A stretch of DNA of 35,611 nt from an uncultured Pelagibacteraceae bacterium (GTDB lineage Bacteria; Pseudomonadota; Alphaproteobacteria; Pelagibacterales; Pelagibacteraceae). A program made the translations under genes and the position numbers. Each line of letters opens with the position of its first letter. Within the stretch, counting starts at the first letter, position 1. The stretch is taken from positions 1-35,611 of the forward strand of contig CACGMR010000008.1 in assembly GCA_902574215.1 (NCBI GenBank), written 5' to 3'. The notes beneath the pieces are model-generated. The model did no database searches and was not told the DNA's origin. It saw nothing but the letters and a program-made list of their open reading frames with translations. This document shows positions 6,296 to 26,269 of the stretch, piece by piece.

Positions 6296-7423
6296 TTAAT
6301 AACTTTTAAGATATTTTAATCTTCCAATTATTTCATCTCTATCCATGTAATATCCTTGGAGATGTCTATGACCAGAATTAGGATCAAACTCAGTTCTTCC
6401 ATGAAGCAATCTTCTATTGTTAAATGAAAAAATATCACCTGGCTCTAGTCTAAAATTGATTTGAAATTTAGCATCATGCAATAAATTTCCAAATCGATGA
6501 TGAGCTTTATAAACTGAATCCATTATATCTGGATGACAATCAAGAGCATCTAGTGTTGCAATACTATAACGAATATCATTGTAGTCTCCGTCTTTAGTAA
6601 GTGATATTGCGGTGCCATAGACACTTCTAACTGCTTCTTGAGTGTAGTCTTTATCTCTAAATTTAAGCGGAGTATTTACCAATATATCAAAAGTATCTTT
6701 TTCATTATTTTTTAAATAATCTGCCACAGCAAATGCATCAACAGCAGATGAGTCGCCACCCTTCGCTGAATTTATCAAACAGTGTAAAAATTGATAACCA
6801 GGCGGATTTTCAAACCAAGGTAAATCCATATGATTTCTTAAAGCGTGCGCTGTATACGCAGAATTATTTGGCTTTGGAATATTAATTACTTCAAAAGGTG
6901 TTTTAAAAAAGGTTTCTCGAGTATGACTTATACGATTTAGAACTTTTAATGCAGAGTTTTTTTCTACTGGAGCTTTTTTAACAATAGCTATTCCAGTATA
7001 ATGTAAAAGCTCTAACCATTTAATCAAACCATCGTCCGAATTTACAATTTCATCATGATCAATTTGAATAGATTTTAAGTTCTTTTCTAAAGAGCTATCC
7101 CAAAGTTTATAAGGTGAGACATACTTTTGCTTATTTTTTAAAGTATAACAATTTTCTCTTAACCATTTTGGATCATAATAGCTTGTATGATCTCCTTCGC
7201 TCCATTCAATTTCTAATTTTCCGTCTGAACTTATAGAATATTTTGTGGGATTAATATTTTGTGAGACTTCCAAAATATTAAACATTCTATGTCTCGAATC
7301 TTTATCATGAGCAGTTGGACAATTATCTCTTAGCCAGAGATAATTAAACTTACTCTCTTCACCATCATTCCAAATAACTTTTAAATACGTTGAATTTTTT
7401 TCTAGTTTAGAAATTGAGCTCAC
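6296..7423 (-). CDS. Gamma-butyrobetaine dioxygenase-like 2-oxoglutarate oxygenase (GBBH/TmpA family)
   Basis: Fe(II)/2-oxoglutarate oxygenase, 375 residues, with an N-terminal GBBH_N (DUF971) domain (about 10-95) and a TauD-type catalytic domain (about 115-370). The iron triad is H198-M-D200 and H341; R353 should bind 2-oxoglutarate. Aligned by eye with human BBOX1, the trimethylammonium-cage region is aromatic (F172, F173, F177, Y190, Y359). Of the four zinc ligands in the N-terminal domain only C35 and H79 are kept; two cysteines are replaced, so the zinc site is probably lost. Expected reaction: gamma-butyrobetaine to L-carnitine. Carnitine dehydrogenase, BKACE and thioesterase genes nearby support this. 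The same family includes TmpA, which hydroxylates choline phosphonate, and a TmpB-like gene is also nearby, so the substrate is not certain. Start is GTG at 7423; an in-frame stop lies 12 bases upstream. Confidence 0.82.
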   Translation of the reverse strand: MSSISKLEKNSTYLKVIWNDGEESKFNYLWLRDNCPTAHDKDSRHRMFNILEVSQNINPTKYSISSDGKLEIEWSEGDHTSYYDPKWLRENCYTLKNKQKYVSPYKLWDSSLEKNLKSIQIDHDEIVNSDDGLIKWLELLHYTGIAIVKKAPVEKNSALKVLNRISHTRETFFKTPFEVINIPKPNNSAYTAHALRNHMDLPWFENPPGYQFLHCLINSAKGGDSSAVDAFAVADYLKNNEKDTFDILVNTPLKFRDKDYTQEAVRSVYGTAISLTKDGDYNDIRYSIATLDALDCHPDIMDSVYKAHHRFGNLLHDAKFQINFRLEPGDIFSFNNRRLLHGRTEFDPNSGHRHLQGYYMDRDEIIGRLKYLKSY

Positions 7424-7554: not shown

Positions 7555-8571
7555 ATGAAGTTTTTAAAGAGATTAACAATCTCAATTTTCCTTCTGTCAT
7601 CTTTGATTGTAAGTAATGCAAACGCTGGTGATTGTAAGGCAAGATTGGGAGATTTTGACTGGAGTAGTGCAAACATCCATACAGCTATCACTACCTTCAT
7701 CCTTGAAAAAGGATACGGGTGTGAAGTTTCTGTAACCAAGGGAAGTACTACCCCAATAATGGCTGCTCATTACGACGGTCAATTAGATGTTATTACTGAA
7801 GTTTGGTATGACAACATTATTGCTAATTACGAGCCACATGAAAAGGCTGGTACTATTATTAATATTGGAGTTAACACACCAGACTCTCAACAAGCATTCT
7901 ATGTAGATAAAACAACAGCTGATAAATACAATTTGAAATCAGTTGATGATATGAAAGATCCAAAAATTGCAGCTTTATTTAAAGATCCAGAAGATCCTTC
8001 AAAAGGAAGAATGACTAGCTGTATATCTGGTTGGACTTGTTATACTGTAAACTTGGTTAAGCAAATAGAATATGGTTTAGATAAATACTATACTAACTTT
8101 GACCCAGGTTCAGGTGGAGCATTAGATGCTGCTATTGCAGGAGCTTTTGCCAAGAAAAAACCAATCTTTACATATTACTGGGCACCAACTGGTTTAATGG
8201 GTAAAGTTGACCTTGTTAGACTTACAGAACCAAAATTTGATTCTGATTGTTGGAACTCTATGTCCGCAGTTGTTGAAGATATTAAAGCAAACGGACCAGA
8301 TGCTTACAAGAAAAGCTGTGCATGTGAATATAGAGATATGGCTTTGACAAAATCTGTTTTAACTGATTGGGCGAAAGCTAATCCTAAAGAAACTGATTTC
8401 TTAAAGAAATATACTATTCCAACAGCTACAGTTAACAAAATGTTAGCTTTTTACGAAGATGAGTCAGATGGTGATATGGAACTTACCGCGATGCACTTCT
8501 TAAAAAATGAAAGCATGTGGAAAGATTGGGTGCCTGCAGACGTTGCTAAAAAAGTTAGCGCCGCTCTATAA
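7555..8571 (+). CDS. proX: Betaine-type ABC binding protein (ProX/OpuAC)
   Basis: Periplasmic substrate-binding protein of the OpuAC/ProX family, 338 residues. The signal peptide runs to about residue 24 (ending NANA), followed by the mature GDCKARLGDFDW start. Three tryptophans at W84 (EVWYDN), W160 (SGWTCY) and W209 (YYWAPTG) are spaced as expected for the aromatic box that holds a trimethylammonium or dimethylsulfonium head group in this family. Likely ligands are glycine betaine, proline betaine, carnitine, gamma-butyrobetaine or DMSP; sequence alone cannot choose. Flanking carnitine and gamma-butyrobetaine genes favour quaternary amines used as nutrients, not only as osmoprotectants. First gene of proX-proW-proV, and separated from proW by a UUCG hairpin. 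Confidence 0.9.
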   Translation: MKFLKRLTISIFLLSSLIVSNANAGDCKARLGDFDWSSANIHTAITTFILEKGYGCEVSVTKGSTTPIMAAHYDGQLDVITEVWYDNIIANYEPHEKAGTIINIGVNTPDSQQAFYVDKTTADKYNLKSVDDMKDPKIAALFKDPEDPSKGRMTSCISGWTCYTVNLVKQIEYGLDKYYTNFDPGSGGALDAAIAGAFAKKKPIFTYYWAPTGLMGKVDLVRLTEPKFDSDCWNSMSAVVEDIKANGPDAYKKSCACEYRDMALTKSVLTDWAKANPKETDFLKKYTIPTATVNKMLAFYEDESDGDMELTAMHFLKNESMWKDWVPADVAKKVSAAL

Positions 8572-8593
8572 TCCAATATATTAAATAATTTAT

Positions 8594-8620
8594 GAAAGAG
8601 CCCTTCGGGGCTCTTTCTTT
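8594..8620 (+). terminator. UUCG-tetraloop hairpin between proX and proW
   Basis: A perfect 10-base-pair stem (GAAAGAGCCC with GGGCTCTTTC, 8594-8603 and 8608-8617) closed by C(UUCG)G, one of the most stable RNA tetraloops, followed by only three T residues. It starts 23 bases after the proX stop and ends 18 bases before the proW ATG. The short T tract suggests partial termination or protection of the proX 3' end more than full termination. Confidence 0.85.
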
Positions 8621-8635
8621 AACTAAATTTAAATT

Positions 8636-9667
8636 ATGGAAGCATTAAAGAAAAATAAAAAAATAATTTTTAATATTGGTTTATTGGTTGTTTTTGTGTG
8701 GTTGTTAATAACTAGCTATTCTCAGTCAAAAAGAAAACCAGATAATATTGGAGAATTATTAAACGATTTTTCTTGGTTAGGAGGTAAATGGCCAAAGTGG
8801 TTAGATTTACCATTAATGAATTGGATCAACGTTGGTTTTAAAGCACTTAATGAAAAATATGGATACATATTTGAAGCTATTAACAATGTTCTTCTTTATA
8901 TGTTAATGCTTGTAAAAAACTTTTTAATTCAAGCTCCATGGCCATTGGTTATACTTGGCGTGGTGGTTCTAACTTATTTTGCAAGTGGTAGAAAAGTTGG
9001 AACAACAGTATTTGTAGGATTTTGTACTTTTTTTATAGGTTTTCTCCACCCAATATTTTGGCAAAAAGCAATTGAAACAACTGCGATAATGTTAATTGGA
9101 ATATTTCTTTGTGTTGTTGCAGGCATTCCATTAGGTATAGCAATGGCAAGAAGCGTAAGAACAAGAAATGTAATTTTACCAGTTTTAGATTTAATGCAAA
9201 CTATTCCAAGTTTCTGTTACCTAATTCCAGGTATTATGTTATTTGGCTTGGGTGCGGTTCCAGCAATTATAGCCACATTTATTTATGCGGTGCCTCCTTT
9301 AGTCAGACTAACAGATTTAGGAATAAGGTTAGTTGATACTGAGGTTATCGAAGCTGCAGATGCGTTTGGCGCAAGTAAAAAACAAAAGCTATGGGGAGTA
9401 CAAATGCCATTAGCTTTGCCAAATATTATGCAAGGAATTAATCAATGTACAATGATGGCATTAGCGATGGTTGTTATTGCATCGATGATTGGTACTAGAG
9501 GTCTTGGAGATGAAGTTTTGCTAGGTCTCCAACAATTAAACGTAGGAAGAGCTGCTGAAGCAGGAATTGCAATTGTACTTTTAGCAATAGTTCTTGATAG
9601 AATAACTCAATCTTACGGAGAAACACTACAAGAGAGAACAGCACCAAATACAAAGAAAGGTAAATAA
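8636..9667 (+). CDS. proW: Betaine-type ABC permease (ProW/OpuAB)
   Basis: Inner-membrane permease, 343 residues. An N-terminal helix (about 10-26) and a long poorly hydrophobic stretch precede the BPD_transp_1 domain (about 140-330), which contains the ABC-contact loop around EAADAFGASKKQKLWGVQMP. The extended N-terminus is typical of ProW. No Shine-Dalgarno is visible before the ATG, which follows the UUCG hairpin by 18 bases, so its expression is probably much lower than that of proX. Its stop overlaps the proV ATG by one base (TAATG), indicating coupled translation. Confidence 0.9.
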   Translation: MEALKKNKKIIFNIGLLVVFVWLLITSYSQSKRKPDNIGELLNDFSWLGGKWPKWLDLPLMNWINVGFKALNEKYGYIFEAINNVLLYMLMLVKNFLIQAPWPLVILGVVVLTYFASGRKVGTTVFVGFCTFFIGFLHPIFWQKAIETTAIMLIGIFLCVVAGIPLGIAMARSVRTRNVILPVLDLMQTIPSFCYLIPGIMLFGLGAVPAIIATFIYAVPPLVRLTDLGIRLVDTEVIEAADAFGASKKQKLWGVQMPLALPNIMQGINQCTMMALAMVVIASMIGTRGLGDEVLLGLQQLNVGRAAEAGIAIVLLAIVLDRITQSYGETLQERTAPNTKKGK

Positions 9668-10692
9668 TGTCTAAAATTGAGATTAATAATGTTTATAAAA
9701 TCTTCGGTAATAATCCTCAATCTGTAATGCCTATGGTAAAAGATGGAGCGAACAAAGAAGAGGTTTTAGAACAAACTGGTCATACTGTTGGTCTTGATAA
9801 TGTTTCGTTAAAAATAGAAGAAGGTGAAACTTTTGTTTGTATGGGTTTGTCAGGATCTGGAAAATCAACTCTAATTAGACATTTAAATAGATTAATCGAT
9901 CCTACTGACGGTGAAATAATTGTAGAAGGAAATAATGTTATGTCTTTCAACAAAGAACAATTGATAGATTTTAGAAGACACAAGATGAGTATGGTTTTTC
10001 AAAGATTTGGTTTGTTTCCACATAAAACAGTTATTCAAAATGTAGGGTATGGATTAGAAATGCAAGGAAAACCGTTGGAAGAAATAAACAAAACCGCTAT
10101 GGAAAAAATTGAAGCAGTTGGTTTAAATGGTTTTGAAAATCAATTTCCAAATCAATTATCAGGTGGTATGCAACAGCGTGTTGGTCTTGCAAGAGCACTT
10201 GCTACTGATAGTGATATCATGTTAATGGATGAAGCCTTTAGTGCCTTAGATCCTTTAATTAGAAGTGATATGCAAAAACAACTATTAGATCTTCAATCAG
10301 AGTTAAAAAAAACAATCGTATTTATCACTCATGATTTAGATGAGTCTTTAAGACTTGGTGATCACATTGGAATATTAAATGCTGGTAAACTTGTTCAAGT
10401 TGGAACACCAGTAGACATTATAATGAATCCAGCTGATGATTATGTTAAGGCATTTGTTAAAGACGTTAATAGAGCAAAAGTAATTAAAGCTAAAATTATA
10501 ATGAAGAGTGTTAATGAATCTAACGATATAGATAAATCTAATTTAATAAAAGTTAATGAAGATCAATTTATTGAGGAATTTTTACCTCAGATTGTATGCT
10601 CGAATTCTAATTGTGAAGTGGTTGACAAAAGTGGAAACGTTAAAGGTTATATATCTAATAAAGAATTACAGACATCATTAACAAAATCATAA
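9667..10692 (+). CDS. proV: Betaine-type ABC ATPase (ProV/OpuAA), shortened C-terminus
   Basis: ATPase of the ProXWV importer, 341 residues. Walker A GLSGSGKST at 60-68, signature LSGGMQ at 164-169, Walker B ending D188-E189, H-loop H222. The N-terminal NPQSVMPMV segment and the insert before Walker A are typical of ProV. E. coli ProV is about 400 residues with two CBS domains; here only one weak CBS-like segment remains after about residue 280 (NGNVKGYISNKEL-like end), so ionic-strength control through paired CBS domains may be reduced or absent. That is an inference from length. Followed after three bases by an SDR gene. Confidence 0.9.
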   Translation: MSKIEINNVYKIFGNNPQSVMPMVKDGANKEEVLEQTGHTVGLDNVSLKIEEGETFVCMGLSGSGKSTLIRHLNRLIDPTDGEIIVEGNNVMSFNKEQLIDFRRHKMSMVFQRFGLFPHKTVIQNVGYGLEMQGKPLEEINKTAMEKIEAVGLNGFENQFPNQLSGGMQQRVGLARALATDSDIMLMDEAFSALDPLIRSDMQKQLLDLQSELKKTIVFITHDLDESLRLGDHIGILNAGKLVQVGTPVDIIMNPADDYVKAFVKDVNRAKVIKAKIIMKSVNESNDIDKSNLIKVNEDQFIEEFLPQIVCSNSNCEVVDKSGNVKGYISNKELQTSLTKS

Positions 10693-10695
10693 TTA

Positions 10696-11484
10696 ATGGT
10701 TAACAAATCATTAAAAAATAAAAAAATTATTATTTCTGCAGGCGCATCTGGAATAGGTTTAGCAACAGCTAAGGTTTGTCTTTCTCGTGGAGCATACGTT
10801 TACCTTTGCGATATTGATAATAAATCCCTAAATAAATTAAACAAAAATCCTCTTATAAATAAGAGGCTGTTTAAATATAATTGTGATGCTTCTGACGAAA
10901 GCCAAGTATTAGATTTATTTAAAAGAATAAGTAAAAAAACGAAAAAAATTGATGCTTTGATAAACAATGTTGGAGTCGCTGGACCAACTGGATCTTTGGA
11001 GAAGTTAAAATCTAAAGACTGGGAAAAAACTATTCAAGTAGATGTTAATAGTCATTTTTATTTTACTAAGAAGGCTATACCTTTGATTAAAAAGTCTAGA
11101 AATGGATCAATAATAAATATTTCATCAACTGCTGGAATACTTGGTTTTCCTTTAAGATCACCTTATGCAGCAAGTAAATGGGCAATTATAGGAATTACCA
11201 AAACTCTCGCAATGGAACTTGGAAAATACAATATAAGAGTTAACGCAGTATGCCCTGGTTCAATTAAAGGCGAAAGAATGAAAAGAGTGATAAGAGATAA
11301 AGCAAAATTTACAAAAGTTTCGTCAAAAAAAATTGAGAAAGATTTTATTTCAATGAGTTCTATGAAAAAGTGGATTCTTGAAGAAGATATAGGGAAGATG
11401 TGCGCATTTTTGATTTCAGACGATTCCAGTAAGGTTTCAGGACAAGTAATTTCTGTAGATGGTCACACAGAAAGAAATGATTAA
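10696..11484 (+). CDS. Short-chain dehydrogenase/reductase
   Basis: Classical SDR of 262 residues. The nucleotide motif reads S-A-G-A-S-G-I-G (14-21), a variant of TGxxxGIG with the first glycine replaced by alanine. D39/D41 after the second strand suggest NAD(H) preference. NNVG at 90-93, catalytic N118, S144, Y157 and K161 (YAASK), then the PGSI segment, are all in place. It follows proV by three bases and is probably co-transcribed with the betaine importer, so a hydroxylated quaternary amine or a related alcohol is a reasonable guess for its substrate, but nothing in the sequence proves this. It ends one base from the convergent carnitine dehydrogenase gene, with no room for a separate terminator. 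Confidence 0.88.
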   Translation: MVNKSLKNKKIIISAGASGIGLATAKVCLSRGAYVYLCDIDNKSLNKLNKNPLINKRLFKYNCDASDESQVLDLFKRISKKTKKIDALINNVGVAGPTGSLEKLKSKDWEKTIQVDVNSHFYFTKKAIPLIKKSRNGSIINISSTAGILGFPLRSPYAASKWAIIGITKTLAMELGKYNIRVNAVCPGSIKGERMKRVIRDKAKFTKVSSKKIEKDFISMSSMKKWILEEDIGKMCAFLISDDSSKVSGQVISVDGHTERND

Positions 11485-11485
11485 T

Positions 11486-12427
11486 TTATCTAAGTTTTTT
11501 TTCGTATTTCTTTCTTAACTTTTGAATATCAACCAAATACTGGTCTCTTATATTAGATATTATTGCAACCGATTTACCTTTAGCCTGTTTTGCTGTTCCT
11601 GAAATCAATCTAGAAGATAATTTTTTTGATAGCTTAGGGGCCTTTAATTTAGTCCATGGTAATTTTAAAGCTGGTCCAAATTGTTCCAACATATGTTTCA
11701 TTCCCGTTTTTCCTCCAGCAAGATGAAAGGTTAAAAATGTACCCATCAAAGACCATCTTAATCCTGGGCCATCTTCAATTGCTCTATCTAATTCTTCAGT
11801 AGTTGCATATCCTTCATTAATAATATGAAGCCCTTCTCTCCATAAAGCTTCTTGTAATCTGTCAGACAAATATCCAGGTAATTCATTTTTAACCATAATT
11901 GGATTCATAGAAATTGATTTGTAAAATTTTTTAGCTAAATTTAAACTTTTTTTTGAAGTTCTCTTACCTGGAACAATTTCTACAGCAGGCAATAAATATA
12001 CAGGATTGAATGGATGTCCAATTATTCCCCTCTCTGGATTTTTACATTTTGAATAAATTCTAGTTGGCAACAAACCCGATGAGCTTGAAGCAATTATTGA
12101 ATTAGATTTTGCATATTTTCCAATAGTGCTAATCAATTTAGTTTTTAAAGAATAATTTTCAGTTGCACACTCCTGAATAAAATCTGCGTCTTTTAATGTT
12201 TGTTCTATTGATGTAAAAAAATGAAAATTTTTTAGATTTAATTTGTTTTTATTAAATAATTTTTTTACAACTGGCCAAGTTCTTTTTATTTCAGATAATA
12301 AATTTTTTTTTAACTTAATATCTTTATCAAATGCATAAACAATTTTGTTATGAGCTAAACAACGTATGATCCACCCTGCCCCAATTACCCCAGTTCCAAT
12401 TATTGCAACTTTTTTAATTGATGACAT
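11486..12427 (-). CDS. lcdH: L-carnitine dehydrogenase (3-dehydrocarnitine-forming)
   Basis: NAD-dependent oxidation of L-carnitine to 3-dehydrocarnitine. It belongs to the 3-hydroxyacyl-CoA dehydrogenase fold: GTGVIG at 11-16, acidic D34 for NAD, HPFNP at 138-142 with the catalytic histidine H138. The region GLRWSLMGTFLTFHLAGG followed by TGMKHMLEQFGPALKLPWTKL is the hallmark I remember for carnitine 3-dehydrogenases and separates them from crotonyl-CoA-type enzymes. Length 313 residues, without the fused thioesterase domain seen in some relatives; here a thioesterase is encoded separately at 13362. Its ATG overlaps the stop of the BKACE gene by one base, so the two are co-translated. Confidence 0.9.
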   Translation of the reverse strand: MSSIKKVAIIGTGVIGAGWIIRCLAHNKIVYAFDKDIKLKKNLLSEIKRTWPVVKKLFNKNKLNLKNFHFFTSIEQTLKDADFIQECATENYSLKTKLISTIGKYAKSNSIIASSSSGLLPTRIYSKCKNPERGIIGHPFNPVYLLPAVEIVPGKRTSKKSLNLAKKFYKSISMNPIMVKNELPGYLSDRLQEALWREGLHIINEGYATTEELDRAIEDGPGLRWSLMGTFLTFHLAGGKTGMKHMLEQFGPALKLPWTKLKAPKLSKKLSSRLISGTAKQAKGKSVAIISNIRDQYLVDIQKLRKKYEKKLR

Positions 12428-13314
12428 TACTTGTGTTTAACAAGTTTTAATTTTTCTCTAGTTTCTGCTGGTGTCATTGGGATATAGCCAAGTTCATCTA
12501 TAATTCTTACTGCTTTTTCTACTAATTGAGCGTTAGTAGCTAATTTACCTTTAGATAAATATAAATTATCCTCTAATCCAACTCTTGGGTTCCCTCCCAT
12601 CAAAACGGTTTGAGCAACAAATGGCATTTCATTTTTTGAAATTGCAAAACCTGACCAAATCCCTTCTTTTGGCATTATATCTTTCATGGCTTGCATAGCT
12701 AATGTTGTAGCAGGTGCTCCCCATGGAATTCCTAAACACATTTGAAACATTGGTGGATCACTTAATAACCCTTCTTTATATAATTGCGCACCAAACCACA
12801 TGTTTCCTAAATCAAAAGCTTCTATTTCTGGTTTAACTTTTATCTCTTTTAATTTCTTTGCTGCTTTTCTTAAATCATTTGGTGTATTAACTGTAATTAC
12901 TGAGCTATCACCAAAATTTAAAGTACCCGCATCTAGAGTGCAAATTTCTGGAAGAAATTGTTCAGCGTTTGCAATTCTTTCCATTACATTTGCCATATCA
13001 GTCATAGGACCAAAATCTAAAGGATTTTTACCTTGTCCAATATCAAGATCACCCCCCATACCTGTTGTTAAATTTAATATTACATCTGCGTCACTTGAAC
13101 GAACTCTATCTACAACCTCTTTATATAACTCTAATCTTCTACTTGGTGTTCCGTCTTCTTCCCTCACATGTATATGAGCAATAGCAGCTCCTGCTTTTGC
13201 AGCTTCAATTGATGCTTTAGCAATTTGTTCTGGTGTTTTTGGTAAATCTGGATGCTTGCTTGCGGTATCTCCTGACCCCGTAACAGCACATGATATGAAT
13301 ACCTTGTTGTTCAT
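12427..13314 (-). CDS. Beta-keto acid cleavage enzyme (BKACE, DUF849), predicted for 3-dehydrocarnitine
   Basis: Zinc-dependent enzyme that condenses a beta-keto acid with acetyl-CoA and cleaves it. For the carnitine subgroup: 3-dehydrocarnitine + acetyl-CoA gives acetoacetate + betainyl-CoA. Metal-binding H47 and H49 (AHIHVR) and E248 (GLEDN) are present, with the N-terminal SCAVTGSG and the PDLPKTPEQIA segment characteristic of the family; 295 residues is normal. The substrate is assigned from its one-base overlap with the carnitine dehydrogenase gene and from the divergent thioesterase; the DUF849 family covers many beta-keto acids. A perfect TATAAT box lies on the minus strand at 13334-13339, about 20 bases before the ATG. 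Confidence 0.88.
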   Translation of the reverse strand: MNNKVFISCAVTGSGDTASKHPDLPKTPEQIAKASIEAAKAGAAIAHIHVREEDGTPSRRLELYKEVVDRVRSSDADVILNLTTGMGGDLDIGQGKNPLDFGPMTDMANVMERIANAEQFLPEICTLDAGTLNFGDSSVITVNTPNDLRKAAKKLKEIKVKPEIEAFDLGNMWFGAQLYKEGLLSDPPMFQMCLGIPWGAPATTLAMQAMKDIMPKEGIWSGFAISKNEMPFVAQTVLMGGNPRVGLEDNLYLSKGKLATNAQLVEKAVRIIDELGYIPMTPAETREKLKLVKHK

Positions 13315-13361: not shown

Positions 13362-13829
13362 ATGTCTTTTCACATAACAAACCAAAAAATCAAAAAAGAA
13401 TGGACTGATTATAATAATCATATGAACATGGCTTACTATGTCTTAGTTTTTGATCAGACTTGGGAGATAATTCTAGAAAAATTTAAGATGGGTGAAAAAT
13501 CTGCAAAGGATACCCAAAGAAGTACCATGGTTGTTGAAACTCGAACTACATATGATGGTGAAGTTAAAGAGGGAGATGAAGTTGAAATTGTTTTAACCTT
13601 TTTTGATCATGATAGAAAGAGATTACATTTTAAGATGGAAATGATTGAAAAATCATCAAAAAAATTATCAGCAACTATTGAAATGTTAGCGCTTTATATT
13701 GATCTTAGTAAAAGAAAAGTTACAGAATTTGAAGATGAAAAAATTAAAATTATGGACGACTTTATAAATGAAAATAAAAACGAATTTAATTCTGACAATT
13801 TATCCATTATTGGAAAACTTAAAAAATGA
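13362..13829 (+). CDS. Hotdog thioesterase, predicted betainyl-CoA thioesterase
   Basis: Hotdog-fold acyl-CoA thioesterase of the 4-hydroxybenzoyl-CoA thioesterase type, 155 residues. The motif W-T-D-Y-N-N-H-M-N (14-22) carries the expected aspartate D16 and the HMN turn at the start of the central helix. In carnitine clusters of other bacteria such a gene releases glycine betaine from betainyl-CoA after BKACE; the divergent BKACE/carnitine dehydrogenase pair 47 bases away gives the same context here. A GAGGG Shine-Dalgarno lies nine bases before the ATG. Its stop overlaps the next ATG by four bases (ATGA), linking it to the oxygenase/HD pair. Confidence 0.83.
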   Translation: MSFHITNQKIKKEWTDYNNHMNMAYYVLVFDQTWEIILEKFKMGEKSAKDTQRSTMVVETRTTYDGEVKEGDEVEIVLTFFDHDRKRLHFKMEMIEKSSKKLSATIEMLALYIDLSKRKVTEFEDEKIKIMDDFINENKNEFNSDNLSIIGKLKK

Positions 13830-14656
13830 TTGATGTAAAATTATTATCAGGAGCATTAGGTGCTGAAATAAGTGGAATTGACTTGACTGACGTTTCAGAT
13901 GAAAATTTTAAAAAAATAAATAACTTATTATTAGAACACAAAGTTATTTTTTTTCGAAATCAACCTTTGACATCAGAACAACATGTTGCTCTAGCTTCGA
14001 AATTTGGACCATTAGAAACACATGCTTATGTAAGAGGTTTAAGTGAATTCCCTGAAATAATAAGAATAATAAAAAAACCTGAAGAAAAAACACAATGGGG
14101 TGAAGGTTGGCATTCAGATGTTAGCTATAACGAAAAACCAACTAAAGCTGTAATTTTAAAATCAATTAAAATTCCACCAGTTGGAGGAGATACTGTTTTC
14201 TCAAACATGGAACTTGCGTGGGAGACCCTAGAAGAAGAGATAAAAAATAAAATCAAAAATAAAAAAGCAGTTCATTCTTCACTTGGAGGTGGGTTTTTCC
14301 TTGATAAATATAAAGCAATGCAAAGTAATGGAAATATGGATGAATACTCAAACACTCATCCAATTTTAAGAACTCATCCAGAAACAGGTAAAAAAATTCT
14401 TTTTGTAAATTGGACTTACACAAAAGAAATTGTTGGTATGGACAAAGAAGAAAGTAAAGAGATATTAAATTATTTATTTGAACATCAGGCAAGATTAGAT
14501 CTTACTTGTAGATTTAAATGGACCGAAAATGCAGTGGCTATTTGGGATAATAGAAGTGTTCAGCATTATGCTATTGCTGATTTTTATCCAAATAAAGGGC
14601 TTGGTTTTGAAAGAGTAATGGATCGTATAGCTGTTGAAGGGGATCATCCGCAATAA
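13826..14656 (+). CDS. TauD/TfdA-family 2-oxoglutarate dioxygenase
   Basis: Fe(II)/2-oxoglutarate oxygenase of 276 residues, typical TauD length and without the GBBH_N domain of the gene at 6296. N-terminal GALGAEISGIDL is a TauD/TfdA hallmark. Iron triad H96-S-D98 and H247; R263 (or R267) for 2-oxoglutarate. Substrate unknown. It lies between the thioesterase (four-base overlap) and an HD oxygenase (three-base gap). Because HD oxygenases of the PhnZ/TmpB type act on an alpha-hydroxylated phosphonate made by a partner 2-oxoglutarate oxygenase, this enzyme is a candidate for such a partner (inference). PhnY and TmpA belong to different oxygenase subfamilies, so this pairing would be non-standard. 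Alternatives: taurine- or alkylsulfonate-type desulfonation, or oxidation of a quaternary amine. Confidence 0.87.
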   Translation: MIDVKLLSGALGAEISGIDLTDVSDENFKKINNLLLEHKVIFFRNQPLTSEQHVALASKFGPLETHAYVRGLSEFPEIIRIIKKPEEKTQWGEGWHSDVSYNEKPTKAVILKSIKIPPVGGDTVFSNMELAWETLEEEIKNKIKNKKAVHSSLGGGFFLDKYKAMQSNGNMDEYSNTHPILRTHPETGKKILFVNWTYTKEIVGMDKEESKEILNYLFEHQARLDLTCRFKWTENAVAIWDNRSVQHYAIADFYPNKGLGFERVMDRIAVEGDHPQ

Positions 14657-14659
14657 TAA

Positions 14660-15196
14660 ATGAAGATAATTTATAAAATCATTTCAAATTTTATAAATAA
14701 TAAATCTTTATACATTGGTGAGAAAGTAACTATGTCAGAACATATGATTCAGTCAGCAATGCTTGCTGAAAAAGCTAAATGTAATGATGATTTAATTTGT
14801 GCATGTTTACTTCATGACTATGGTCATTTTCTTTTAGAAGATCCTGAAGAATTAGTTAAAAATAAATTAGATGGAGAGCATGAAAATATTGGATATCAGT
14901 ATTTAAAAAAATTTTTTGGACAAAAAATTGTTGAGCCAATTAAATACCATGTTTTGGCTAAACGTTATTTGGCTCGAGACAAAAAATATTTTGATTTTTT
15001 ATCAGATGCGTCAAAAATAAGCCTCAAGTTACAAGGCGGCGTTTTAAATGACAAAGAAAGTAAAAAGTTTGAGAATAAATCTTACTTTAAGCCATCAATT
15101 CTGCTCCGAAAGTTTGACGAAGCCGCTAAAAGAACTGACATAAAAATGAAATCTATTCATGACTATGAAAAGTTGTTAAGTTCAAAACTTATATGA
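14660..15196 (+). CDS. PhnZ/TmpB-type HD-domain mixed-valent diiron oxygenase
   Basis: HD-domain protein, 178 residues. Compared from memory with PhnZ, which cleaves the C-P bond of 1-hydroxy-2-aminoethylphosphonate, all metal-ligand positions are present: H28, H52-D53, H74, H97 and D153. The Y18/E21 pair matches the PhnZ induced-fit residues. Other family landmarks: GEKVTMSEH, LLHDYGH, HVLAKRYLA (K101), LSDAS, QGG (125-127) and LLRKFDEAAK (R150). These are shared with PhnZ and TmpB, which give glycine or glycine betaine plus phosphate, and not with HD hydrolases. In a betaine-forming neighbourhood, choline phosphonate (2-trimethylaminoethylphosphonate) is an attractive substrate, but this is inference. 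It sits three bases after the TauD gene and overlaps the GMC gene by four bases. Confidence 0.85.
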   Translation: MKIIYKIISNFINNKSLYIGEKVTMSEHMIQSAMLAEKAKCNDDLICACLLHDYGHFLLEDPEELVKNKLDGEHENIGYQYLKKFFGQKIVEPIKYHVLAKRYLARDKKYFDFLSDASKISLKLQGGVLNDKESKKFENKSYFKPSILLRKFDEAAKRTDIKMKSIHDYEKLLSSKLI

Positions 15197-16773
15197 ATTT
15201 TGATTATTTAATCATTGGCGCTGGAAGCGCGGGCTGTGTGCTTGCAAACCGATTGACAGAAAATGATCAAAACAATGTAGCCATATTTGAAGCTGGAAAA
15301 CCTAGTGATATTTGGAAAGTTAACATGCCACTTGCGATTTTATACACAATGCATGATCCAAAGTATAACTACAAATATTATTCAGAACCAGAAACTCATC
15401 TACATAATAGAAGATTATTTTGTCCTAGAGGAAAAATGATTGGTGGATGTTCTGCGCATAATGGAATGGTATTTGTGAGAGGTAATCCGAATGATTATCA
15501 AAGATGGGCATCATTTGGATTGGAAGATTGGTCTTATGAAAAAGTTCTTCCCTATTTTAAAAAAGTTGAAACATGGTCTGAAGGAGAAAATGAATATCGG
15601 GGTGGCAGTGGAATACTACCAGTAAACCAATCTAAAAATAAAAACCCTTTATTCAAAGCATTTGTCGATTCAGCTGGTGAAGCAGGTTACAAAATAAATA
15701 ATGACATGAATGGTAAAGAGCAAGAAGGTTTTGGAATGTACGATGTTACTATCCATAAAGGAGAGAGAGCAAGTGTATCTAAGTATTATTTAAATCCTGC
15801 TAAAAAAAGAAAAAACCTTAAAGTGTTTACAGAAGCTTTTGTTGAAAGAATTATTTTTGATGGAAAAAAAGCAATTGGAATTGAAGTAAAAATAAAAAAT
15901 AAAGTCGAAAAGATTTATGCCAATAAAGAAGTGATTTTAAGTGGAGGTGCAATTAATTCACCGCAATTACTAATGCTTTCTGGAATTGGTCCAAGCCAAC
16001 ACTTAAAAGATAAAGGTATTAGTGTTGTTCACAACTTAGACGGTGTTGGAAAAAACTTACAGGATCACTTGGAAACTTATGTTCAGCAAGAATGCAAAAC
16101 TAAAGACACCTTATACTCATACGTTAATAAGTTAAATATGGTTAGAATTGGAATTCAATGGTTTTTGAATAGAAGTGGTCCTTGCTCTACTTCTTTCTTG
16201 GAAGCTGGAGGATTTTGTAAATCATCTCCAGAAAGAGAGTATCCAAATATTCAATTTCATTTTTTTCCTGCCTTTGTAATCGATCATGGATTAGTTGATC
16301 CAGATAGGCATGGTTACCAGTTACATGCAAGTCCAAACCATCCAAAAAGTAGAGGTCATATAACTTTAAACAGCTCAAACCCTTATGATTATCCAAAAAT
16401 TCAATTTAATTATCTAGAACATGAGGATGATTTAAAACAAACAATAGAATGTATTCATGTAGCTAGAAAAATTTTAGGACAAGACTCTTTGAAGCCTTTT
16501 GCAGGAAAAGAAATTGGACCAGGAGAACATGCCCAAACTAATGAGGTATTCGAAGAATACATCAGATCTAAAGCTGAGACTGCTTACCACCCATCTTGTA
16601 CTTTAAAAATGGGAGTAGACAATATGGCTGTTGTAGATCAAAAACTAAAGGTTCATGGTGTTGAAAATCTAAGAGTAGTTGATGCGTCTGTAATGCCTGA
16701 AATTACAAGTGGAAACCTTAACGCTCCAACATTAATGATTGCTGAAAGAGCATCCGAATTTATTTTAAATTAA
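15193..16773 (+). CDS. GMC-family FAD oxidoreductase, choline dehydrogenase-like (BetA-type)
   Basis: FAD-dependent alcohol oxidoreductase, 526 residues. GAGSAG near residue 9 binds FAD; the GMC signature PRGKMIGGCSAHNGM lies near residues 76-90; the catalytic pair is H466 (AYHPSCTLKMG) and N510 (GNLNAPT). Overall it resembles choline dehydrogenase, which oxidises choline to betaine aldehyde, but GMC enzymes with this signature also act on other alcohols and no betaine-aldehyde dehydrogenase gene is adjacent (the nearest aldehyde dehydrogenase is at 26262 in another operon). Last gene of the thioesterase-TauD-HD-GMC operon. It converges on the ureohydrolase gene with two bases between stops and no visible hairpin. 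Confidence 0.85.
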   Translation: MNFDYLIIGAGSAGCVLANRLTENDQNNVAIFEAGKPSDIWKVNMPLAILYTMHDPKYNYKYYSEPETHLHNRRLFCPRGKMIGGCSAHNGMVFVRGNPNDYQRWASFGLEDWSYEKVLPYFKKVETWSEGENEYRGGSGILPVNQSKNKNPLFKAFVDSAGEAGYKINNDMNGKEQEGFGMYDVTIHKGERASVSKYYLNPAKKRKNLKVFTEAFVERIIFDGKKAIGIEVKIKNKVEKIYANKEVILSGGAINSPQLLMLSGIGPSQHLKDKGISVVHNLDGVGKNLQDHLETYVQQECKTKDTLYSYVNKLNMVRIGIQWFLNRSGPCSTSFLEAGGFCKSSPEREYPNIQFHFFPAFVIDHGLVDPDRHGYQLHASPNHPKSRGHITLNSSNPYDYPKIQFNYLEHEDDLKQTIECIHVARKILGQDSLKPFAGKEIGPGEHAQTNEVFEEYIRSKAETAYHPSCTLKMGVDNMAVVDQKLKVHGVENLRVVDASVMPEITSGNLNAPTLMIAERASEFILN

Positions 16774-21950: not shown

Positions 21951-22014
21951 CATAACTCGTCGTTTAAATCAAGGATTTACGAAAGTGGGATCGGTCGTCT
22001 TTAAATTAACTTTT

Positions 22015-22022
22015 AAAGGAGG
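22015..22022 (+). promoter_or_regulatory. Strong Shine-Dalgarno deciding the monooxygenase start
   Basis: AAAGGAGG, four bases before ATG 22027. The same frame is open upstream to a GTG at 21985, but the perfect ribosome-binding site and the family-typical N-terminus (MKFGYF) place the real start at 22027. Confidence 0.8.
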
Positions 22023-22026
22023 CTTT

Positions 22027-23196
22027 ATGAAATTTGGTTATTTTTGTAATACCACAAACTGGACACACAAACCCTATCATCAGCTATTAGATGAAACTAA
22101 AGAAATCACAGAATACTGTGATCAAAATAAATGGAATTCAATTTGGTTTACAGAACATCACTTCAATCATGAAGGAATGGAATCTTGCACAAATCCATTA
22201 ATGATGGGTGCAGATGCTGCTGCCAGAACAAAAAATATTAGAATAGGTCAGGCTGCAAACGTTATTACTTTCCATAATCCAATAAGATTAGCAGAAGATA
22301 TTGCAACATTAGATCAACTTTCAAAAGGGAGAGTTGAAGTAGGTGTAGCAAGAGGAATTTATGGCAGAGAAGCAATAAATTTAAACAAAGAGGCTGATTT
22401 AAAAGATCAGGCTAAAAATTTCAGATTATTTGCTGAGACTTTAGAAGTATTAAAGAAAGCATGGAGCGAAAAATTTTTCAGTCACCAAGGAGAGTTTTAT
22501 ACTTATCCATCACCAAATTATGTTTGGCAGCATGATATGAGTCCTCCGAGTGAAGAATTTATGAATATGGAAGACAGTACTATGAAAAAAATTAGTGTTG
22601 TTCCACAGCCATATCAACAGCCACATCCTCCAATTCATCAAGTTGTTGATGGAATTAGATCAATTGAGTGGGCTGCTGAAAATAACATTAATGTTATTAT
22701 GTGGATTCCAACTGTAAAAGCTTTGAAACCAAAATTTGAAGCATATAAAAATAAAAGATCAGAGGTAACAAAGAAAAATATACCTCTTGGCGAAGGGGTG
22801 TCTCTTGTAAGAGATATGTTTATTGCAGATACGATGGAAGAAGCAAAAGAGAAGGCTGGTGAACATATGGTAAATTATATGAGATGGGTTTGCCATTGGA
22901 GAGGTTTAGGCAATCATATGGATCCAGGTGAAGAATTACCAGAGACAAAAGGTAAATTAGATTTATTAAATTATGAATTTTTACATAAAAGAAACATGTT
23001 ATTTGGAACACCCGAATATGTAATTGATAAAATTCATGAATTAAAATCTGAACTCAATTTACAAAATTTACAAGTTTGGTCTAATTTTCCAGGTGTGAAG
23101 CATAAAGATTGTATGAAAAGTATAAAACTTTTCACAGAGAAAGTTATGCCTCACTTCCAAGATGATTTTGATACTGAAGTAAAAAAAGTTTCGTGA
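22027..23196 (+). CDS. Luciferase-like flavin-dependent monooxygenase (LLM class)
   Basis: Bacterial-luciferase-family protein, 389 residues, using reduced flavin and oxygen. Visible: the N-terminal first strand MKFGYFCN, WFTEHHFNHEG near the second strand (EHH is the conserved luciferase-family segment), VITFHNPIRLAEDIATLDQLSKGRVEVGVARG, and a C-terminal helix. No flavin reductase is encoded nearby, so reduced flavin must come from elsewhere. It is the first gene of a five-gene operon and overlaps the next by four bases (GTGA). In other clusters such enzymes open heterocycles or oxidise amines or sulfonates; the substrate here is unknown. Confidence 0.87.
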   Translation: MKFGYFCNTTNWTHKPYHQLLDETKEITEYCDQNKWNSIWFTEHHFNHEGMESCTNPLMMGADAAARTKNIRIGQAANVITFHNPIRLAEDIATLDQLSKGRVEVGVARGIYGREAINLNKEADLKDQAKNFRLFAETLEVLKKAWSEKFFSHQGEFYTYPSPNYVWQHDMSPPSEEFMNMEDSTMKKISVVPQPYQQPHPPIHQVVDGIRSIEWAAENNINVIMWIPTVKALKPKFEAYKNKRSEVTKKNIPLGEGVSLVRDMFIADTMEEAKEKAGEHMVNYMRWVCHWRGLGNHMDPGEELPETKGKLDLLNYEFLHKRNMLFGTPEYVIDKIHELKSELNLQNLQVWSNFPGVKHKDCMKSIKLFTEKVMPHFQDDFDTEVKKVS

Positions 23197-24896
23197 ATAA
23201 AAGACGAAAAAGAATTAGCGGCGGACAAGCTGCTGTTCAATCATTAAAAAAAGAGAGAGTAAAACATGTTTTTGGACTTATTGGTTCAGCAACAATGGAA
23301 ATGTTTGATGCTCTTTATCATGAGAAAAGTATAAAATTTATTGGTGTCAGAGATGAAAGAACTGGCACACATATGGCTGATGGTTATGCAAGAGCATCCA
23401 ATAGACCTGGGGTAATCATTGCAGGACAAAACGGACCTGGTGCTACTAATTTAGTTACAGGAGTTGCTCAAGCAAAAGCAGCTTTTTCTCCAGTTGTTGC
23501 AATTGCAGGTTCGTATTCAACTAAAGATAAAATGGAAGATGCATTTCAAGGTTTAGATCAACAGTCTTTGTTTACACCTATTACAAAAAAAACTTGGACT
23601 ATAAAAAATTCAAAAATAATTCCAAAAATTATGAGTGATGCTTTTAGTTTGGCAATGAAACCTAGAAAAGGACCTGTTTGTGTAAATTTACCAAGAAATA
23701 TATTAGCAGCTTCAAACTCCTATAATATTAATACTAAAAAACAATCCTTCACAAATGAGAGTAAACAAAAAGGAAATATAGAAAATATTAAAAATGCAGC
23801 TAAATTAATTGGATCCTCAAAATGTTCAGTAATTGTTGTTGGTGCTGGAATAAAGTATAATTCTAAATACAAAGAGGTAATAAAATTAGCTGAGCTATGC
23901 AACTTACCTATTGTTACAGCAGCAGGTCATGGAGATGCAATTCCATTTGGTCATAAATTAAATGCGGGACAAATGGGTCCTAGAGGAAATCCGGTAGCAT
24001 CAAGATTAGTTAAAAATGCAGATGTCATTTTAGCAATTGGAACACGTTTAGGATTCAATTCAACTTTTTACTCCTATGAAAATATAAATAAAGAAGCAAA
24101 GATAATTCAAATTGAACTAGAAAAAACAATGCTTGGAAAATATTTTCCTGTAAAAGTAAAGATACACGCGGATGCTGCGACTGCAACTAAACAACTTTAT
24201 GAAGAGATTAAAAAAGAGAAAATTAAATTAAATGTTAAAGATTGGACTAACTCTTATTTACAAGAGAGAAAAGAATATTTGATAAATAGAAATAAAGAAA
24301 ATTTGGGTCTAAATTTTCCTATACAACCAAAAGGACTATTTAAACAATTAAGAAAGGTGCTACCAAGAAACTCAGCAATTACTCTAGATGCTGGAACATT
24401 ATGTTTGCAGGCTACAGACGCGTTAGAATATTATGATCCTCCTTCATTATTTACTCCATTGGACTTTGGTTTAGTTGGTTTTTCTTTTGCGTGTGGTCTT
24501 GGGGTCAAGGTTGCTAAGCCTAAAAAAACAGTTGTTAGTCTTATGGGTGATGGAGGTTTTGGCATGACAATATCTGAATTAAGCACTGCTGTTGAATATG
24601 GAATTAATACAACAACTATTGTGATGAACAATCAAAGCTGGGGTGCAGAAAAAGCTTATCAAAAAGATTTTTTTGGCAAAAGATATTTAGGTGCAGATAT
24701 TACCAGTCCATCCTTTGATAAGGTTGCAGAACTTTATGGTGCAAGAGGTTTTAAAGTTAAAAAAATTTCTGAGATTAGTGAAGCTGTAAGAGCAGCAATT
24801 AAATCGAATAAGCCAACTGTGATAGATGTTGATGTAGATCCAAAAGCATTATACAGTTTTAGAAGAGATAGTTTCAAACATAAATTAAAAAAATGA
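23193..24896 (+). CDS. Thiamin-diphosphate-dependent enzyme (acetolactate synthase/Xsc-like)
   Basis: ThDP enzyme of 567 residues with the three-domain acetohydroxyacid-synthase layout: N-terminal Pyr domain with the activating glutamate E55 (RDERTGTHMADGYAR), central domain (about 200-340), and C-terminal PP domain with GDG (452-454) to NN (479-480). The GQNGPGATN segment is also reminiscent of sulfoacetaldehyde acetyltransferase (Xsc). There is no small regulatory subunit nearby and the operon is catabolic in character, so acetolactate synthesis is unlikely; decarboxylation or C-C cleavage of an alpha-keto intermediate is a better guess. Start is GTG at 23193, overlapping the upstream stop. 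Confidence 0.85.
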   Translation: MNKRRKRISGGQAAVQSLKKERVKHVFGLIGSATMEMFDALYHEKSIKFIGVRDERTGTHMADGYARASNRPGVIIAGQNGPGATNLVTGVAQAKAAFSPVVAIAGSYSTKDKMEDAFQGLDQQSLFTPITKKTWTIKNSKIIPKIMSDAFSLAMKPRKGPVCVNLPRNILAASNSYNINTKKQSFTNESKQKGNIENIKNAAKLIGSSKCSVIVVGAGIKYNSKYKEVIKLAELCNLPIVTAAGHGDAIPFGHKLNAGQMGPRGNPVASRLVKNADVILAIGTRLGFNSTFYSYENINKEAKIIQIELEKTMLGKYFPVKVKIHADAATATKQLYEEIKKEKIKLNVKDWTNSYLQERKEYLINRNKENLGLNFPIQPKGLFKQLRKVLPRNSAITLDAGTLCLQATDALEYYDPPSLFTPLDFGLVGFSFACGLGVKVAKPKKTVVSLMGDGGFGMTISELSTAVEYGINTTTIVMNNQSWGAEKAYQKDFFGKRYLGADITSPSFDKVAELYGARGFKVKKISEISEAVRAAIKSNKPTVIDVDVDPKALYSFRRDSFKHKLKK

Positions 24897-25480
24897 AATT
24901 AGAATTAAGAAAATTTACAAAATTTGTAGACAAAACTTTTATTGAAGGTGGTAAAGAAGCAAAAGAACCAGTTTTAATGGTATCAGTAGCAGCAGTGTTT
25001 AAAAATCCATGGCATGGTCAGGGTTTTGTTGAAGATCTCAGACCAACTATTTTAGATCTTGCGCCTAAATTAGGTGATTTACTTGTTCCAGAATTGATAA
25101 AAGAAATAGGATCACCTGAAAAAATATTGGCATATGGCAAGGCAGGTGTAGTTGGATTGAACGGTGAAATAGAGCATGCTTCAGCTTTTATTCATACTTT
25201 AAGGTTTGGTAATAAATTTAGAGATGCTGTTGGTGGAACTTCCTATTTAAGTTTTACAAATACAAGAGGACCTGCTGGATCAAAGATTGCGATTCCTATG
25301 ATGCATAAAACAGATTCTGGATTGAGACCATATTACCTAACTCATGAATTTACTATTCATGATGCACCCTTCGATGATGAGGTGGTTATTGCAATTGGTG
25401 GGGCATCAAGTGGTAGAGCACATGCAAGAACTGGTGACAGATATCAAGACATGAAAGAAATGGGTATTGAGCCAAAATAA
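24893..25480 (+). CDS. AA_synth (DUF1185) family protein
   Basis: Protein of 195 residues matching the family named amino acid synthesis protein (PF06684/DUF1185). Recognisable pieces: EPVLMVSVAAVFKNPW, QGFVEDL, the AYGKAGVVGLNGEIEHASA stretch and the ending AIGGASSGRAHARTGDRYQDM. I know of no established reaction for the family in spite of its name. It overlaps the ThDP gene by four bases and precedes the hydrolase by six, so it probably acts on an intermediate of the same pathway, perhaps a hydrolysis or isomerisation. Confidence 0.82.
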   Translation: MKLELRKFTKFVDKTFIEGGKEAKEPVLMVSVAAVFKNPWHGQGFVEDLRPTILDLAPKLGDLLVPELIKEIGSPEKILAYGKAGVVGLNGEIEHASAFIHTLRFGNKFRDAVGGTSYLSFTNTRGPAGSKIAIPMMHKTDSGLRPYYLTHEFTIHDAPFDDEVVIAIGGASSGRAHARTGDRYQDMKEMGIEPK

Positions 25481-25486
25481 TTCTTG

Positions 25487-26269
25487 ATGACGACGGGAAC
25501 TACTGCATCAGGAACTTATTACTTATTCAATAATAAGGATCAAGATGTACCAATAGTATTTGTGCATGGTGTAGGTCTTACTCACGAAATATGGCAGCCC
25601 CAGCTTGAATTTTTTAATTATCATTCAACTCTTGCCTATGACATTTTAGGTCATGGAAAATCTTCACTAGAAAATAAGAAAATAAGTTTTGATGATTTTT
25701 CTGACCAACTAATTGGGTTAATGGACCATCTTAATATAAAAAAAATACATCTTGTAGGTTTCTCTATAGGTTCTTTAGTTGCACGAAATTTTGCAACTAA
25801 ACATAATGAACGTTTACAGACATTAACTCTTTTGTGTTCTATTTATAAAAGAACTGAGGAACAACAAAAAATTGTTAATCAAAGGTTTCAACAAGCAAAA
25901 CAAGAATTAAAACTTTCAAAACAAGCTTTAAAGAGATGGTTTACTGATAAATATTTAGAAAATAATCCAGAAATATATAAAAAAATAAGTTCAATTTTGT
26001 CTGCTAATAATATGAATAATTTTTTAAAGGTTTACGAGCTATTCGTTAATCATAAAAATGATGAAGATTTTAATAAAATTAAAGCTAATACGCTAGTTAT
26101 GACAGGTGAATACGACATTGGCTCAACTGTAAAAATGTCTCAAGAATTGAATGCTTTAATCTCTAAAAGTCAATTAAAGATCATTAAAGATGGAAAACAT
26201 CTTTGTGGTATTGAGTGTGCTGATGATGTAAATTTAACCATCAAAAATTTTATTGGATCAGATGAGTAA
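25487..26269 (+). CDS. Alpha/beta-fold hydrolase
   Basis: Hydrolase of 260 residues. Oxyanion-hole HGVG at 27-30, DILGHGKS at 52-59, nucleophile elbow G-F-S93-I-G, a later acidic residue in TGEYDIGS and histidine in KDGKHLCGIE, a complete catalytic triad. The family includes ester, lactone and C-C hydrolases (3-oxoadipate enol-lactonase-like); the substrate is not readable. I chose ATG 25487 over the TTG at 25484. It overlaps the next gene by eight bases (ATGAGTAA). Confidence 0.85.
   Translation: MTTGTTASGTYYLFNNKDQDVPIVFVHGVGLTHEIWQPQLEFFNYHSTLAYDILGHGKSSLENKKISFDDFSDQLIGLMDHLNIKKIHLVGFSIGSLVARNFATKHNERLQTLTLLCSIYKRTEEQQKIVNQRFQQAKQELKLSKQALKRWFTDKYLENNPEIYKKISSILSANNMNNFLKVYELFVNHKNDEDFNKIKANTLVMTGEYDIGSTVKMSQELNALISKSQLKIIKDGKHLCGIECADDVNLTIKNFIGSDE

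Follow-up and report, generated by a model that had tools for sequence, protein, structure and literature searches.

Four versions of oxidative carbon-phosphorus (C-P) cleavage are listed in a 2023 review, namely PhnY*Z, GmPhnY/Z, TmpAB and the fungal PhoF (PMC10574752), so that the "third lineage" proposed for the present locus by an initial annotation was an undercount. The solved proteins that best match the HD-domain protein studied here, HD-A, are TmpB of Leisingera caerulea (PDB 6npa; E 7e-31), the enzyme that follows TmpA in its pathway, and then PhnZ of bacterium HF130_AEPn_1 (PDB 4mlm, 4n71; E 4e-27). In one survey 45% of the marine phnZ sequences came from Pelagibacterales (PMC9381506), and reports on ocean data mention phnZ relatives of two types, methylphosphonate and TMAEP (PMC8316502). 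No paper naming a TauD-PhnZ pair was found in our literature search, which was made in part by title and abstract. SAR11 are among the commonest surface-ocean cells, and the ways in which they acquire phosphorus and use methylated nitrogen compounds bear on marine cycles.

The window, that is, the whole stretch of 35,611 nucleotides analyzed here, comes from a genome of Pelagibacteraceae (SAR11), and its HD-A is 97-100% identical to its nearest named relatives, which belong to uncultured Pelagibacteraceae. Four genes follow each other on the + strand. The first encodes a 4HBT-type thioesterase (TE, 13362-13829), which in profile searches showed a weak likeness to carnitine 3-dehydrogenase fusions in their C-terminal part. 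It is followed by TauD-A (13826-14656), a TauD/TfdA-family Fe(II)/2OG dioxygenase of 276 aa, by HD-A (14660-15196), a predicted HD-domain diiron oxygenase of 178 aa, and by a choline-dehydrogenase-like oxidoreductase (GMC, 15193-16773) that scored 746.3 bits against the PRK02106 subfamily (cut-off 605). TE overlaps TauD-A, the GMC start overlaps the HD-A stop, and three bases separate the TauD-A stop from the HD-A start; open reading frames, strand, coordinates and this spacing agree with the initial annotation. On the other side of TE lie a - strand gene identified by profile search (12427-13314), a carnitine-dehydrogenase-like protein of the 3-hydroxyacyl-CoA dehydrogenase family (11486-12427, - strand; PRK07066, 353.2 bits, below the cut-off of 414), an SDR-family dehydrogenase (10696-11484, + strand; profile search) and a three-gene quaternary amine importer of the ProXWV type, named from its translations (7555-10692, + strand). 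The window also holds a GBBH-type dioxygenase of the GBBH/TmpA family (6296-7423, - strand) that the annotation leaves unmentioned, and a BKACE protein is encoded among the genes around the four-gene run. The profiles of the flanking genes speak for an operon concerned with the use of carnitine, choline and betaine.

A glycine betaine island of Arctic SAR11 was published in 2025 (PMC12421898), and it resembles two of the loci that we compared (L103, L163) in its ABC importer, BBOX, CDH, BKACE, ACOT, BBOX(2), CHDH and DMT genes. By gene order we match the Arctic BBOX(2) with TauD-A. Unlike the window, the Arctic island has no HD gene in its printed 17-gene list (PMC12421898). A small transporter gene of the SMR type was observed between the thioesterase and TauD in some genomes, in the opposite direction (L103, 9084-9416), and such a gene is listed for the Arctic island as well (PMC12421898).

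By its sequence and its modelled fold, HD-A is an oxygenase of the PhnZ/TmpB kind, and residues, profiles, fold and tree agree on this point. It matched Pfam HD with 34.0 bits and the profiles Phn-HD (TIGR03276), TmpB (NF049941) and PhnZ1 of Gimesia (NF052439) with 166.6, 153.3 and 138.5 bits, in each case below the curated cut-off (214.6, 300 and 300, respectively). All the residues that the annotation had named, Y18, E21, H28, H52-D53, H74, H97, K101, Q125-G126-G127, R150 and D153, were present and invariant in the 23 rows of an HD-A alignment that includes some close relatives, as were H56 and S118. The H...HD...H...H...D metal ligands and the YxxE loop, whose roles we take from PMC8177086, are therefore complete in 23 of 23 rows. 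An AlphaFold model of HD-A (pLDDT 95.0) aligned over 168 to 175 residues with five PhnZ/TmpB entries (Z 24.5-26.7, rmsd 1.4-1.8), reaching Z 26.0 with TmpB and up to 26.7 with PhnZ, and the next structural match was MIOX with a Z of 10.7. A tree was built from 72 HD proteins. HD-A came out as a single long-stemmed clade (100/100), which adjoined with weak support (94/71) the group holding TmpB and most TmpA-adjacent proteins, and PhnZ stood apart on a long branch. The dN/dS values of close HD-A pairs were 0.02-0.04 (three pairs; a fourth had saturated dS).

HD-A shares with TmpB the metal ligands, the YxxE loop, the K, QGG and R landmarks and M29, and it shares the landmarks and the fold with PhnZ. 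However, its score stays well below the TmpB cut-off (153.3 bits vs 300), its majority residue agrees with the columns typical of the TmpB group at 3 of 23 positions (11, 29 and 85), and its clade-specific residues include M34, C47 and Y54. The neighbours differ too: HD-A adjoins TauD instead of a TmpA-type protein with the phosphonate Asn/Asn/Arg, and no PhyH-type PhnY* adjoins it as in the PhnZ system.

HD proteins were found in 65 of the 297 Pelagibacterales genomes surveyed: HD-A in 32, HD-B in 14 and HD-C in 20, with HD-A and HD-B together in one genome. In the HD tree, HD-B and HD-C were placed elsewhere than HD-A. Twelve of the 14 HD-B genomes were fetched (L035-L046) and their HD surroundings were alike; in one of these loci the neighbours were PhnG (142.8 bits, above the cut-off of 89), a PhnD-like protein (254.3, below 261.1) and a PhnF-like protein (147.5, below 156.8). 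All 20 HD-C genomes belong to the sister family of the window's family. Of six HD-C surroundings read, one has PhnX, above its cut-off, two genes off (L050), three have a gene of PhnX length at the corresponding place (L047-L049), one has PhnW, above its cut-off, two genes off (L051), and in the sixth no PhnX- or PhnW-like neighbour was seen (L052). These neighbours of HD-B and HD-C lend support, though no proof, to a role of the HD family at large in phosphonate use.

TauD-A belongs to the TauD/TfdA superfamily (PF02668, 204.6 bits, cut-off 27), and its Fe/2OG ligands H96, D98, H247 and R263 were invariant in 20 of 20 rows. Its model (pLDDT 91.3) matched structures of the AAD-1/RdpA type and of TauD about equally (Z 34-36). 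Compared with the taurine dioxygenase TauD of E. coli, TauD-A has the same fold (Z about 35) and the same Fe/2OG ligands, and it keeps an oxyanion site equivalent to His70 and Arg270; these two residues bind taurine in the E. coli enzyme, in which an amine side is also described (PMC9304159). On that amine side the two proteins differ, as Tyr73, Asp94 and Asn95 have given way to V, W and G in every one of the 20 TauD-A rows, and the score against taurine dioxygenase (PRK09553) is 231.7 bits, below the curated 313. Three aromatic residues, W91, Y101 and Y198, were invariant in the 20 rows, but we make no claim of an aromatic cage for trimethylammonium because relatives outside the order are often aromatic there too and the loop around 158-162 was aligned differently in two alignments. 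Close TauD pairs gave dN/dS values of 0.06-0.17 (four pairs).

The surroundings of TauD in the sister family, a setting distinct from the window's locus, were read in five loci. An EamA transporter gene lies beside TauD on its 5' side in all five, and a divergent alkylsulfatase was present in four (L105, L168, L170, L171), whereas the fifth (L169) has the EamA gene only. Two of the alkylsulfatases were assigned by Pfam, one of them having SdsA-type proteins as its best solved relatives, and the other two by 65-72% identity. No HD protein was seen within about 1.5 kb of 29 TauD relatives outside Pelagibacterales.

The gene order TauD-HD is not due to chance. TauD lies directly 5' of HD-A in 26 of the 32 HD-A genomes, one being cut by a contig end and one split over two frames. 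The same order was seen in named GTDB loci, 75 of the 79 that could be assessed, many of which are near-copies (80 were fetched and one was cut at HD). The annotation had counted an adjacency confined to the source genome as a refutation, and the adjacency is kept beyond it, which leaves the idea of a TauD-HD pair weakened but not dead in view of the gene contents described below. The split TauD (L032, 663-1500, genome G236) occupies two overlapping frames, a stop being read in one match, and reflects gene decay or a sequencing error; the HD gene adjoining it is one open frame.

Counted at an identity of at least 64%, TauD-A occurs in the window's family in 57 genomes and in the sister family in 26, and 14 further genomes hold only TauD relatives at 37-41% identity. 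GMC, counted at 72% identity or more, was present in 80 genomes of the window's family, and these include all 57 TauD genomes and all 32 HD-A genomes. The slot before GMC occurs in four states: TauD and HD-A in 26 genomes, TauD only in 31, HD-A only in six and neither in 17. HD-A has a fixed place in it, directly before GMC, and in HD-less genomes GMC directly follows TauD or TE. When HD-A stands alone, TE lies directly 5' of it (six of six loci). Of the 31 TauD-only loci, all fetched, 30 have TauD and then directly GMC, and in G105 the two are on different contigs; among the 17 loci with neither gene, TE is directly followed by GMC in 14, an EamA gene lies between them in one, and GMC is set elsewhere in two. 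Since these direct junctions lie within contigs, assembly gaps are not the explanation for a missing TauD or HD. A fixed operon slot with TauD, HD, both or neither constitutes a natural test of a phosphate-releasing kind of gene, and it shows that adjoining oxygenase genes should not be taken for one pathway until they have been checked for parting company.

The initial annotation had proposed TauD and HD as a possible new pair, and here the gene contents were less favourable to it. HD-A lacks TauD in 6 of 32 genomes and TauD lacks HD-A in 31 of 57, so the two do not behave as the genes of a two-gene oxidative C-P pathway that are kept together, and a dedicated new two-enzyme pair is improbable. 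The association of TauD with HD-A across the 80 genomes was not significant (Fisher p 0.13, kinship ignored). A tree of GMC proteins was built for 77 of the 80 genomes, the three with a partial dehydrogenase being left out. On this tree HD-A changed at least six times and TauD four times; in six independent HD-A contrasts TauD on average went along with HD-A in 1.7 and showed no difference in 4.3, and in none did it go the opposite way. Thus the two genes mostly change apart, although with three to six independent pairs the comparison has little power. The six HD-only genomes fall inside a clade of 20 whose other 14 members lack both genes, which makes a gain of HD without TauD probable in this clade. 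On the other side, when HD-A or HD-B was counted, HD was present in 36 of 57 TauD genomes against 6 of 23 others (p 0.003, kinship ignored), and HD-B was found in one of 26 TauD genomes with HD-A against 10 of 31 without (p 0.008, kinship ignored). The pattern resembles what would be seen if TauD were served by a single HD per genome, and both this avoidance and the co-occurrence speak for the pair idea. HD-B is commoner among TauD genomes without HD-A, and 21 of the 57 TauD genomes lack both HD types.

We looked for a hydroxylase that could supply HD-A. The phosphonate residues of TmpA are N187, N287 and R288 (PMC9296572). In HD-bearing loci outside Pelagibacterales, 27 of 29 GBBH-family proteins, counted once per locus and position, carry Arg288, and 21 of these are N-N-R; the two without Arg288 are both second copies. 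The GBBH-type protein of the window was rejected as the missing TmpA, as it reads N-I-A and lacks two of the three residues; its 18 island homologs read N-I/V/T-A. A second protein of the TmpA family is encoded on contig 1 of the same genome (6474-7523; L350, 1492-2595), and it scored 346.4 bits against TmpA (cut-off 400, not reached) vs 274.2 against GBBH. Its residues at the three positions are D-P-R. This type was found in three of three further HD-A genomes (G022, G052, G015) and in two of five HD-free genomes. As the source genome is 69% complete, the absence of TmpA from it shows little. The same three HD-A genomes are 97-99% complete, and a search at E 1e-20 or better recovered three GBBH-family proteins in each, none of them N-N/A/S-R, so that no obvious canonical hydroxylase is at hand for HD-A. 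One of the three types has D-N-Y at the phosphonate positions (L361, L362, L363). A PhnY*-like partner of the PhyH type was also discarded: of five PhyH matches in the source genome three were checked, and the best reached 29.9 bits vs a cut-off of 500. No match to a SAR11 PhnD was obtained in the source genome (69% complete; a search without control). For other bacteria, R-HAEP has been considered as a substrate used in nature (PMC8154272), so HD-A could possibly be supplied by importing the hydroxyphosphonate ready-made.

The explanation that we prefer, and to which we give about an even chance, is that HD-A is an optional TmpB-like module of the SAR11 glycine betaine island and TauD-A an independent one, the separate modules of the island converging on glycine betaine. 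HD-A would oxidize an (R)-1-hydroxy-2-aminoalkylphosphonate, probably its N-trimethyl form, with O2 at the diiron center, releasing phosphate and glycine betaine (or glycine); glycine betaine, the product of TmpB, is also the likely product of HD-A. The hydroxyphosphonate would be imported ready-made or formed by a hydroxylase, not necessarily the neighbouring TauD. The substrate of TauD-A may be an anionic quaternary amine, organosulfur or other, such as choline-O-sulfate or taurobetaine, and the enzyme would yield an aldehyde that the adjoining GMC could oxidize on to glycine betaine. With the alkylsulfatase beside TauD in the sister family and GMC directly 3' of TauD in the window's family, our preferred guess is the conversion of an organosulfur quaternary amine to betaine aldehyde. 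Several results count against this explanation, namely the three of 23 TmpB columns, the TmpB score below cut-off, the TauD gene 5' of HD-A in 26 of 32 genomes and of HD in 75 of 79 named loci, the TauD-HD association with HD-B counted (p 0.003), the avoidance between HD-A and HD-B, the lack of a PhnD-like match in the source genome and the fact that the alkylsulfatase setting comes from a different family of the order. If it is true that HD-A acts on a quaternary aminophosphonate, phosphorus scavenging would be tied to the use of glycine betaine.

AEP and taurine are phosphonate and sulfonate analogues of each other. It is unlikely, in our estimate, that TauD-A is a C1 hydroxylase of an aminoalkylphosphonate (TMAEP or AEP) whose product HD-A then cleaves at the C-P bond to glycine betaine and phosphate, and we are just as doubtful of the wider form, in which TauD-A is a member of the taurine dioxygenase family turned phosphonate alpha-hydroxylase, partnered by HD-A or, in trans, by HD-B. 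The adjacency in 26 of 32 HD-A genomes and 75 of 79 named loci, the retained His70 and Arg270 equivalents, the co-occurrence with HD-B counted and the lack of a canonical TmpA among the GBBH-family proteins of three near-complete HD-A genomes all agree with such a pair; moreover, E. coli TauD yields R-1-hydroxytaurine (PMC9304159), which fits the requirement of PhnZ for (R)-alpha-hydroxyphosphonates (PMC10574752). Yet 21 of 57 TauD genomes do without either HD and 6 of 32 HD-A genomes without TauD, the changes on the GMC tree mostly do not coincide, TauD has an alkylsulfatase setting in the sister family, and no HD was seen within about 1.5 kb of 29 TauD relatives outside the order. Quite improbable is a partner of HD-A encoded elsewhere, for instance the contig 1 protein, with TauD as a bystander. 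That protein is nearer to TmpA than to GBBH and its type occurs in all four HD-A genomes checked, the source genome included, two of which lack TauD, but it has D-P-R in place of N-N-R, scores below the TmpA cut-off and occurs in two of five HD-free genomes. The least probable alternative, to which we give a small chance, is that HD-A has no part in phosphonate use and breaks a C-C or some other bond in a diol derived from carnitine or choline, as would suit an island that handles carnitine and choline compounds and a clade with residues of its own (M34, C47, Y54) on a long stem branch. The landmarks common to PhnZ and TmpB are nevertheless invariant in HD-A, its model is far closer to these enzymes (Z 24.5-26.7) than to MIOX (10.7), and some HD relatives in the order lie beside PhnG, PhnF- and PhnD-like genes or near PhnX or PhnW.

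Two further observations concern the island. A protein of a HalD halogenase-like Pfam family, tested by Pfam in one locus (L061, 16485-17336), takes the place of part of the importer, and similar genes are found in the island versions of L154, L155 and L162. In many relatives the island is followed by a run of five genes that in the window extends from 21985 to 27743 and that, by reading, encodes LLM-type, acetolactate-synthase-like and amino-acid-synthesis-like proteins, an alpha/beta hydrolase and an aldehyde dehydrogenase.
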